From Bacteroidales bacterium (GTDB lineage Bacteria; Bacteroidota; Bacteroidia; Bacteroidales; UBA932), in NCBI GenBank assembly GCA_017617655.1, contig JAFZVU010000051.1, forward strand, positions 1 through 35,158: 35,158 nucleotides of DNA. Reading direction: 5' to 3'. Shown one piece after another: positions 744 through 31,253 of this stretch (the first letter of the stretch is position 1; every line of letters begins with the position of its first letter). The notes under the pieces were generated by a model, which saw only the letters and a list, made by a program, of their open reading frames with translations, was not told the origin of the DNA and ran no database searches. Made by a program: the position numbers and the translations under genes.

Positions 744-759
744 GAGTAGCTATAGTTGC

Positions 760-945
760 TCCAGAAAAGCAAGCGGCTTCCGAGGGTTCGAGAGTGTTAT
801 TGGACAGTCCAATAACACTCTCTCGGACCCTTCCATTGTCTGCTTCGTCATCGCTTACGCGATAACTCGCATCCAACGGACACCTCCCCGCTCTGCTAGG
901 CCGCGGGGGGCCAGCCTCTCCAGCCATCTTGCTTTCCTTGCATCT
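760..945 (-). repeat. Type B structured repeat, copy 3 (divergent, with an enlarged terminal hairpin)
   Basis: Read on the minus strand, this region aligns with the two ~170-bp copies at 4413 and 24815. It has the same order: AGATGC-type flank, a GGAAAG outer-stem arm, GAGGCTGG, a CCCGC/GCGGG hairpin (887-907), ATGCGAGTTAT, a small hairpin with loop GTAA (850-863), then GACGAAGCAGAC. The outer arms, at 928-937 and 764-773, pair with each other. In place of the GGAGT...ACTCC hairpin of the other copies it carries a perfect 16-bp stem (790-822). The sequence differs in many stem positions, but pairing is kept. Confidence 0.7.
790..822. repeat. Perfect 16-bp inverted repeat with a 1-nt centre
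   Basis: GAGAGTGTTATTGGAC (790-805) is followed by one base and its exact reverse complement (807-822). Pairing resumes outside a 2-nt bulge (GGGTTCG against CGGACCC), so the whole hairpin is about 50 nt. No run of T follows on either side, so it is not an ordinary terminator. It occupies the place of the last hairpin of the type B repeat. Confidence 0.85.
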
Positions 946-1134
946 GCCCACTTCTATCACGAAGGTGTTTGCAGTCGATGCTGCCGGCAGAATGCCGCAA
1001 GGCAACATTGTGCCCCACTTTGCGAGGCCGGCCTTTTTGCCGAGCAAAGAAGGGGGTCTGGAGGGGCGCGAATTTGTGGAATAAATTCGCGGTTGCCCTA
1101 GGCATTGCTGCCGACAGCATTTGTTTGCTCCTAT
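946..1134. other. Non-coding spacer with several hairpins
   Basis: No convincing gene is visible here on either strand. The spacer contains a perfect 9-bp stem (CGCGAATTT at 1067-1075, complement at 1083-1091) and a short TGCC-GCAA-GGCA hairpin near 992-1003. It lies between a type B and a type A repeat, downstream of the convergent genes yccF and tcdA. Confidence 0.5.
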
Positions 1135-1255
1135 GTACAAGGTCTGCTAAATAGCGACAGATCTTGTACGTGTGAATTTTGCAAATCGCTGAATCTGAGT
1201 AAGTTGCTGTTTTGGGGTGCGCAAGGTCTGCGGTAGTTTTGCAGACCTTGTGCGC
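1135..1255. repeat. Type A paired-hairpin repeat, copy 1
   Basis: Two hairpins are separated by about 50 bp. The first (1135-1169) has arms around ACAAGGTCTG with wobble pairs. The second (1219-1255) is a near-perfect stem, GCGCAAGGTCTGC against GCAGACCTTGTGCGC. A CTAAGG motif follows the outer end. It lies immediately downstream of the tcdA stop codon and may act as a transcription-terminating or mRNA-protecting structure. The same architecture recurs at 4280, 19568 and 31130. Confidence 0.85.
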
Positions 1256-1260
1256 TAAGG

Positions 1261-4279: not shown

Positions 4280-4404
4280 GTGCACAAGGTCTGCTAAAAT
4301 GCTGCAGACCTTGTGCATCTCAAAATCGCAATTTGCTAAATATCAGGTATTTGCTAAAAATTCGCGCACAAGGTCTGAACTTTTTTAGCAGACCTTGTAC
4401 ACTA
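4280..4404. repeat. Type A paired-hairpin repeat, copy 2
   Basis: TGCACAAGGTCTGC (4281-4294) pairs perfectly with 4304-4317. A second hairpin follows at 4364-4400 (ACAAGGTCTG against CAGACCTTGT). The spacer is AT-rich. The CCTTAG end motif is present at 4275-4280. The copy directly abuts a type B repeat (from 4413). Confidence 0.88.
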
Positions 4405-4412
4405 GGAGCAGA

Positions 4413-4582
4413 AGATGCTTAGAAAGAAGGCATTCGGGGAGGCTGGTCACCCGTGACTTGCAAAACGGGAGGGGCCCGACGAATGCGAGTTCTGCGTAAG
4501 CAGGACGATGCAGACGTTGGGAGGGTTGGAGTGAGCGTTAAGCGAACGGAACTCCCAGAATGCCTTGCTTTCTAAAGCATCT
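4413..4582 (+). repeat. Type B structured repeat, copy 1 (170 bp)
   Basis: The outer arms AGATGCTTAGAAAG and AAGGCATTC at the left (4413-4435) pair with GAATGCCTTGCTTTCT and AAGCATCT at the right (about 4558-4582). Inside are a CCCGT/ACGGG hairpin (4450-4469), a CTGC-GTAA-GCAG tetraloop hairpin (4492-4503) and a GGAGT/ACTCC hairpin. It shares long identical blocks with the copy at 24815-24984, including ACTTGCAAAACGGGAGGGG. Its right end overlaps a spurious upstream extension of the prfA frame. It could be transcribed as a small structured RNA or be a mobile palindromic element. Confidence 0.85.
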
Positions 4583-19567: not shown

Positions 19568-19690
19568 GTGTACAAGGTCTGCTAAAACATCGCAGGCCTT
19601 GCGCACCCAGAAATCGCAACAGGCTGATATCCAGGCTTTACCAAAAATAAAGTGCACAAGGTCTGCGACATTTTTGCAGACCTTGTGCGC
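19568..19690. repeat. Type A paired-hairpin repeat, copy 3
   Basis: This is the reverse complement of the copy at 31130-31253 with only scattered differences, including the whole spacer (for example CTGATATCCAGGC against GGATATCAGCC). The hairpin at 19653-19689 is near perfect (TGCACAAGGTCTGC). It lies just after pnuC, between convergent genes. Confidence 0.9.
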
Positions 19691-19723
19691 TTGTATACTA
19701 TATAAGGCTGGGGATGCTGGCCG

Positions 19724-24486: not shown

Positions 24487-24559
24487 GCGGAAGTAGCTCA
24501 GTCGGTAGAGCGTCGGCTTCCCAAGCCGAAGGTCGCGGGTTCGAAACCCGTTTTCCGCT
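24487..24559 (+). tRNA. tRNA-Gly (anticodon CCC)
   Basis: The full cloverleaf is visible. The acceptor GCGGAAG (24487-24493) pairs with TTTCCGC (24552-24558; last pair G-U), with discriminator T. The D arm is GCTC...GAGC. The anticodon stem is TCGGC/GCCGA with loop TTCCCAA, giving anticodon CCC. The T arm is GCGGG-TTCGAAA-CCCGT. CCA is not encoded. It reads GGG glycine codons. Confidence 0.96.
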
Positions 24560-24628: not shown

Positions 24629-24814
24629 ACTGGGGCGCTGCCCCAAACCCTGCCGCTCCGGCCTGCTATCAGCACAAGCCGCCCTCACGGCCTCCGCTAG
24701 CGCCTGCAGGCGCCTTTCCTGTCCTTCGGACACTCGCACACTCCGCCACGGCGCTGATGCGCCCTGTTATCCCACCGCACAGATTTGATTTGTCCATTCC
24801 GTGCAGAAGAGGAC
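24629..24814. other. Non-coding, hairpin-dense GC-rich spacer
   Basis: No gene is supported on either strand. The stretch is a series of short GC hairpins with small loops: TGGGGC-GCT-GCCCCA (24630-24644), GCCG-CTC-CGGC, AGCGCCTGCAGGCGCC, GTCC-TTC-GGAC and GGCGC-TGAT-GCGCC. Open frames crossing it are by-products of its composition. It leads straight into the type B repeat at 24815. Confidence 0.5.
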
Positions 24815-24984
24815 TGATGCGGCGGAAAGAAAGCCTGTAGGGAGGCTGGTCACCCGTGACTTGCAAAACGGGAGGGGCCCGCCGAATGCGAGTTATGCGT
24901 CAGCATGACGAAGCAGACGGTGGGAGGGTTGGAGTGAGCGTCAGCGAACGGAACTCCCCTAAGGCTTTGCTTTCCATAGCATCA
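24815..24984 (+). repeat. Type B structured repeat, copy 2 (170 bp)
   Basis: This copy has the same length and order as the one at 4413-4582. The outer arms TGATGC, GGAAAG and AAAGCCTGTAGGGA pair with the right-hand CCCCTAAGGCTTTGCTTTCC and GCATCA. These differ in sequence from copy 1 yet still pair. The internal hairpins are CCCGT/ACGGG, ATGC-GTCA-GCAT (24895-24906) and GGAGT/ACTCC. It lies between tRNA-Gly and the rpiB operon and is followed by a type A variant. Confidence 0.85.
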
Positions 24985-25007
24985 GCTACAGTTTCTATTA
25001 TTCAAGT

Positions 25008-25093
25008 GCGGTAGGTCTGCTTTATTATGGAGGACCTACCGCAAAATCGGCCTTTTTCGCGGTAGGTCGGACATTTTTTGGAGGACCTACCGC
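25008..25093. repeat. Type A-variant paired-hairpin repeat with different arms
   Basis: Two hairpins each have the perfect 10-bp stem GCGGTAGGTC/GACCTACCGC (25008-25042 and 25059-25093), joined by a 16-bp spacer. The architecture equals that of type A, but the arm sequence is new and fully self-complementary. It lies next to a type B copy, as type A copies do. Confidence 0.85.
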
Positions 25094-25189
25094 AGTGACT
25101 GCCCGAAATTGTTGTTTTTCGTCTATGGCAGACAGGCCGCTCGCCCGCATCAAAGACGTCCTTCTATGGCGAAAGTGCGGAGAAAATCT

Positions 25190-31129: not shown

Positions 31130-31253
31130 GTGCACAAGGTCTGCAAAAATGTCGCAGACCTTGTGCGCTTTGTTTTTGGTAAGGCTTGGATATCAGCCTG
31201 TTGCGATTTCTGGGTGCGCAAGGCCTGCGGTGTTTTTGCAGACCTTGTACACC
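31130..31253. repeat. Type A paired-hairpin repeat, copy 4
   Basis: TGCACAAGGTCTGC (31131-31144) pairs with 31154-31167. The second hairpin is GTGCGCAAGGCCTGC (31214-31228) against 31238-31252. Its reverse complement closely matches the copy at 19568, spacer included. It lies between convergent stops of the ICMT-like gene and trpB2, with the CTAAGG end motif at 31254-31258. Confidence 0.9.

Follow-up and report, generated by a model that had tools for sequence, protein, structure and literature searches.

A repeat of about 150-230 bp in gut Bacteroidales, here called Type B, is probably a small mobile element whose fold is under selection. It occurs between genes in many copies, keeps its fold from copy to copy, is present at some sites and missing from the same sites in relatives (with one clean insertion), and lies inverted at orthologous sites. 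The interpretation we favour, and consider reasonably probable, is that of a non-autonomous, intergenic, interspersed family that spreads within the genomes of one Bacteroidales genus, is selected for its fold and would depend on an enzyme supplied in trans.

Type B copies in the window and their parts

The window, a stretch of 35,158 nucleotides, is contig C6 of a 2.2-Mb, 84%-complete assembly of a Bacteroidales bacterium. The first-pass annotation had placed three copies of the repeat in it, the third on the minus strand, and these placements are confirmed by the cores that a covariance model assigns (Table 1); the hairpins and stems it quoted are all present in the sequence as given. An ungapped stretch of 117 nt aligns copies 1 and 2 at 91% identity.

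Table 1. Type B copies, their parts and adjoining palindromes in the window
Feature	Position	Strand	Basis or remark
Copy 3, whole with arms	753..946	-	core 768-933 by covariance model
Near-perfect palindrome/hairpin in place of P4 in copy 3	790..822	.	
Paired palindrome, REPIN-like family D1	4280..4403	.	directly left of copy 1, outside the element
Copy 1, whole with arms	4409..4582	+	ends are the extent of a 99% match to a G001 copy at another locus
Copy 1, modelled core (P0 to P4)	4421..4573	+	covariance model, E 4.8e-36, copy 1 itself being in the model's alignment
Copy 1, hairpin P2 (CCCGT/ACGGG)	4450..4469	+	alignment and covariation
Copy 1, arm P3 with apical hairpin P3a (4489-4506)	4475..4521	+	conserved G.U in P3 and U.G in P3a
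Copy 1, hairpin P4 with tandem G.A motif and G..A loop	4531..4547	+	
Copy 2	24814..24985	+	core 24824-24975 by covariance model
Paired palindrome, GCGGTAGGTC...GACCTACCGC family	25008..25094	.	right of copy 2, outside the element

Other repeats adjoin these copies. The D1 family (GCACAAGGTCTGC...GCAGACCTTGTGC) has four copies in the window (1133-1256, 19568-19691 and 31130-31253 besides the one in Table 1) and also occurs near a RAYT-like gene (L029; contig C37 of the own genome), and the GCGGTAGGTC family is likewise found beside the RAYT gene of L028 / L296 (contig C88). A tRNA gene (24487-24559) is found some 250 bp from copy 2, and positions 1-180 are presumably the end of an IS4-type transposase gene.

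Distribution and gene context of the family

A DNA search of the own genome, one of the checks that the first-pass annotation had proposed along with a search of relatives and a covariation test, found further copies, and a covariance model (R1) built from 18 copies gave 22 matches there. The same model found at least one match in 22 of the 26 genomes of the genus, with 1 to 24 per genome (E up to 0.001). All of these are draft assemblies in which repeats break contigs, so that the copy numbers are probably lower bounds. A 393-genome sample of the order, searched with stricter filters that lose weak matches, yielded 4 genomes with a match: the own genome, one from another genus of the same family, and two from other families. 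Inspected by eye, the distant relatives retain P2, P3 and the outer stem but have no P3a, and P4 is not clear in one of them (L240); those in a genome of another Bacteroidales family (L237, L242) occur in inverted pairs with a spacing of about 20-60 bp.

An exact 22-base core pattern was found in 49 stretches of named genomes, chiefly Bacteroidales assemblies from rumen, omasum, reticulum and horse faeces. Presence of the element in a termite-gut Spirochaete was rejected, for its two loci (L254, L277) match the 22-base pattern and do not match the covariance model. These Spirochaetaceae loci carry a different repeat, CATTGCGAGTTCTGCG.AGCAGGACGAAGCAAT, with the P3a motif and its GA-flanked hairpin, a sharing that is possibly convergent. 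Plasmid and phage collections gave no blastn match to window copy 1 and IMG/VR no exact match to the 22-base core pattern, and on these searches a plasmid or phage origin was rejected. A known RNA family was rejected as well: at gathering threshold the 4227 families of Rfam matched only tRNA, both in the whole window and in 12 loci with diverse copies, while two matches below threshold had E-values of 1.5 and 7.8. This agrees with the first-pass annotation, which had recognised no named Rfam family, and within the open-licence literature we recognised no published description of Type B. Several copies (L009, L018, L019 and L152, with parts in L010 and L013) carry in a hairpin loop or arm a nested insert of the TACTGGGGC...CCCAAACCC type, which looks like a further repeat family.

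None of 107 copies is spanned by an ORF of at least 90 aa, and a protein-coding repeat was rejected on this count. For the 76 copies with neighbours called on both sides, simple ORF calls, with no genome baseline behind the numbers, placed 32 between convergent genes, 18 in sense, 15 in antisense and 11 between divergent genes, a context in keeping with an element that is tolerated where genes end and has no set orientation. In 7 of 60 loci a tRNA gene lies no more than about 1 kb from the element, which is perhaps above expectation.

A conserved inner fold

The consensus fold consists of an outer stem (P0/P1), the hairpin P2, the arm P3 with its apical hairpin P3a, and finally P4. Our fairer test of this fold was a MAFFT alignment of 18 copies, though the structure was drawn from the same 18 copies; here 90.2% of cells pair and the covariation score is 0.273, against 0.115 for shuffled alignments and at most 0.086 when the structure is slid. 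By a weaker measure, 16 of the 45 pairs change on both sides, a number reached by 7 of 500 shuffles, and further pair types are not above the shuffles at all (452 of 500 reach 28). In an alignment of 107 matches, which was fitted to the model and therefore leans towards the structure, 37 of 45 pairs show changes in both partners (972 cells), and the score is 0.533 against 0.163 shuffled (sd 0.005) and at most 0.089 slid. The aligned copies are related sequences with a shared ancestry. Covariation is strong, exceeding both controls on most measures, and the view of the first-pass annotation that the stems vary while their pairing is kept is borne out in the 18- and 107-copy alignments alike.

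From such compensatory change the annotation had concluded that the fold is under selection, a step that has to be qualified, since coordinated change in the long outer arms can also come from template-directed palindrome correction. The internal domain, which is the best conserved part of the element, is another matter. In the 107-match alignment a U.G wobble is kept in 100 of 102 copies and a G.U wobble in 84 of 103, the tandem G.A motif of P4 is kept in 81 of 107, and the unpaired junction blocks are conserved as well. Because these wobble and G.A pairs are conserved and not made perfect, selection is the better reading for the inner domain, and the inner fold itself appears, as far as sequence comparison can tell, to be under selection on the G-rich strand.

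The folding strand is indicated by the non-standard cells of the alignment, where G.U (259) exceeds A.C (42; 75 against 42 without the two constant wobbles, with 27 of the 42 A.C in two pairs), which points to the plus strand. Folding energies agree: with RNA parameters the inner 138-139 nt of copies 1 and 2, the two copies folded, gave z-scores against dinucleotide shuffles of -5.3 and -4.2 on the plus strand and of -3.2 and -2.1 on the minus strand. DNA parameters gave weaker values of -3.8 and -1.9. As to the loops, P3a is tipped by C-GNA-G in 74 of 107 copies, and P4 by C-GNA-G in 32, by four-base GNNA loops with a pyrimidine in third place (GNYA) in 45 and by GNRA in 7. GNA loops form very stable DNA mini-hairpins (Yoshizawa 1997, cited in PMC6479982). 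The loop types are thus hints of single-stranded DNA; RNA parameters, by contrast, give the better z-scores. The first-pass annotation had offered a structured RNA or a hairpin mobile element, and this reading is supported, the folded form being either RNA or single-stranded DNA. The checks run gave none of the outcomes that it had named as refuting: there are more copies, they covary strongly, and Rfam holds no match.

Filled and unfilled sites

The sister genome G001 carries, at a different locus (L052) and between two convergent stop codons as read by eye, a copy 99% identical to window copy 1. The same flanks are found in G000 and G014 with 3 bp and 1 bp between them and without about 190 bp, the identity to G001 being 95% on the left and 89% on the right for G000, and 90% and 86% for G014. 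The window copy and the G001 copy are therefore more alike than the neighbouring DNA of G001 and G000. Taken together, the 99% copy at another locus and the insertion missing in two relatives are good evidence from comparison of genomes that Type B is mobile; losses from G000 and G014 could be invoked instead, but they would need to have brought back a spacer of 1 to 3 bp. In this same spacer the G022 genome has an element whose identity is 97% to window copy 3 (over 132 nt) but only 73% to that of G001, which indicates an independent insertion (L052/L149); the G022 flanks match those of G001 at 84% and 83%.

No convincing target-site duplication was seen at the clean L052 insertion or at the other sites inspected. 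At the locus of window copy 1, G014 has an empty site, G022 a D1-like palindrome and nothing else, and G001 an insert interpreted by eye as a toxin-antitoxin-like pair; around the block of D1 and element at this site there is, also by eye, an imperfect 18-bp duplication. Unfilled sites were sought for 11 own-genome copies, whose spacers were mostly too diverged; the one contiguous unfilled site came from comparing L006 with G004, and its ends were not clear.

Inversion and exchangeable outer arms

At three sites the orthologous element is inverted (L016 versus L150 and L197; L169 versus L189; L134 versus L159), the element pieces being 92-98% identical and the flanks 81-92%, and several other orthologous sites have it in the same orientation. 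The inversion claim rests on these three sites, the other inverted pairings having been discarded, since the 33 raw pairings (22 same, 11 inverted) include some with two elements per locus, flank repeats or loci of one genome. Compensated changes are visible by eye in P3 and the arms of L169 against L189.

Outside the conserved stem, the two arms of a copy often complement each other and yet are site-specific (L035, L189, L196, L016), many own-genome copies have part of their arms in common (GATGC...GGAAAG / CTTTCC...GCATC), and arm ends agree within subfamilies and differ between them. At least 11 of the next 14 arm bases pair in 25 of 104 copies, against 2.7% when arms are swapped between copies. 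The idea that the arms derive from palindromes already present at the insertion site is unsupported at the L016/L150/L197 site, where the eight genomes that match the flank comprise three filled sites, three unfilled (G004, G019 and G007, without a palindrome by eye), one whose contig starts inside the gene (G001) and one too diverged (G012). Template switching or recombination between arms would explain both the complementarity and the inversion. Neither process would conserve the inner wobbles and G.A pairs, and these therefore point to selection on the fold. In one case near a contig start (L051:16-267, G014 C88), an element lies in a palindrome that reaches some 50 bases further out to either side, which is either an assembly artefact or a real long palindrome.

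RAYT-like transposases as candidate enzymes

Y1 (RAYT-like) transposases gave 122 matches in 23 of the 26 genomes of the genus, including a few genes matched in two pieces. Among the matches listed, and counted by eye from two lists, at least five have a Type B element downstream in the same orientation at 58 to about 190 bp (in G016, at two genes in G019, and in G007 and G004), and a sixth (G013 C50) has a piece of one upstream. Three of the five arrangements look orthologous, with REPIN-like hairpins in between, so that the adjacency falls short of a direct link. It may indeed be indirect, given that other hairpin families lie beside RAYT loci: in a check of 26 loci, 20 showed a palindrome no further away than about 450 bp, and at 13 there were at least two hairpins of one kind, unlike Type B. 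Four RAYT loci of the own genome were tested and lacked a Type B element, and of the nine own-genome RAYT matches none shares a contig with one, among the 19 of 22 own elements listed. Element and RAYT counts correlate over the 26 genomes (rho 0.49, p 0.012, with relatedness and assembly fragmentation not corrected for). RAYT transposases are thus candidates only for the mobilising enzyme.

Explanations weighed

Under the interpretation we favour, each copy is a long hairpin in which an outer stem of weakly constrained sequence carries the conserved branched domain of P2, P3/P3a and P4. A trans-acting enzyme, possibly an HUH/Y1 transposase of the RAYT type acting on single-stranded DNA, would recognise the folded domain and then move or copy the element, and template switching or arm recombination would keep the arms complementary and flip the element. 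A more specific version, in which the transposition signal would be the internal branched domain folded as single-stranded DNA (G-rich strand, GNA/GNNA loops, presumably sheared tandem G.A), and not the ends, with arms that could be freely replaced, restored as complements through copying and flipped in place, and with a RAYT-like HUH nuclease in trans, is speculative, and we think it unlikely as it stands. Weighing against a mobile element selected for its fold are the want of a convincing target-site duplication, the shared arms of the own genome, which are closer to an ordinary terminal repeat, the empty sites, which could be losses, and the better z-scores of RNA over DNA.

The last of these suits a dispersed structured RNA family, transcribed from neighbour genes, that acts as RNA in the role of a terminator, a regulator or a stabiliser of 3' UTRs and owes its spread to its usefulness. 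Strong covariation, G.U pairs conserved on one strand and the convergent-gene spacer as the commonest position (32 of 76, again with no baseline) are also what such a family could show, but the element has no clear orientation bias to neighbour genes, is inverted at orthologous sites, has P4 tetraloops that are mostly GNYA and not GNRA, and matches nothing in Rfam; we regard this explanation as rather unlikely, though it deserves to be kept in view. Were the pairing instead a product of mutation bias alone, by template-switch palindrome correction and without selection on the fold, then the long and site-specific outer arms (L189, L196, L035), their excess of pairing over swapped arms and the inversions would all be accounted for. 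The inner wobbles and tandem G.A pairs are however conserved and not corrected, as are the unpaired junction blocks, which makes such an origin for the whole element quite improbable. An ordinary MITE, a deletion derivative of an IS moved via terminal inverted repeats, we hold to be the least likely of these readings: size, inverted ends, intergenic copies, presence and absence, and the arms common to many own-genome copies would all fit, but terminal sequences differ between subfamilies, target sites are not convincingly duplicated, and it is the internal domain and not the ends that is best conserved.

Relation to known systems and significance

Type B is closest in kind to bcr1 of the Bacillus cereus group, described as a group-specific, mostly chromosomal repeat of 147-167 bp in tens of copies per genome, with a conserved predicted fold and mobile-element features (PMC6542083, PMC2267715). 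The likeness is one of description and not of sequence: the two are similar in length and copy number, both are chromosomal, and both have a conserved fold and features of mobile elements; with its dispersed intergenic copies, conserved fold and presence or absence between relatives, Type B is of the same kind, a statement about kind and not about family. Its hosts are of a different phylum, and the TTTAT motif reported for BCR repeats was not seen at the clean L052 insertion. REPs are 20-40 bp hairpins (PMC3733652) and REPINs doublets of such hairpins (PMC3116915). Type B resembles them as a family of intergenic hairpins in genomes where RAYT-like genes are abundant and some elements stand next to such genes, but its size (about 150-230 bp) and its branched architecture with a conserved inner domain make it neither of the two, and the RAYT genes of its genomes have other hairpin families beside them. 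The TnpA-REP subclass 2.6 of Bacteroidetes, a phylum that includes the Type B hosts, is described as having 'atypical secondary structures' close to Y1 genes, these structures having further copies in other parts of the genome (PMC6006769), and the likeness is drawn from that description and not from a comparison of the structures themselves.

By its ends Type B appears not to be a typical MITE. In general form it also resembles the ERIC/IRU repeats of enterobacteria, which are intergenic palindromes of about 130 bp. We call it a fold-selected, non-autonomous interspersed element with exchangeable arms.

For most mobile repeats of bacteria, recognition depends on the end sequences. In Type B it is the internal fold that is best conserved, the ends drift, and elements turn at orthologous sites. 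RAYT-like genes, with their own hairpin families, are numerous in these genomes, so that it is directly testable whether an HUH nuclease recognises the fold, and the abundance of these genes and the hairpin families of the genus (loci L296-L325) merit separate study. Type B offers a natural experiment in how single-strand folding, palindrome correction and selection shape repeats.
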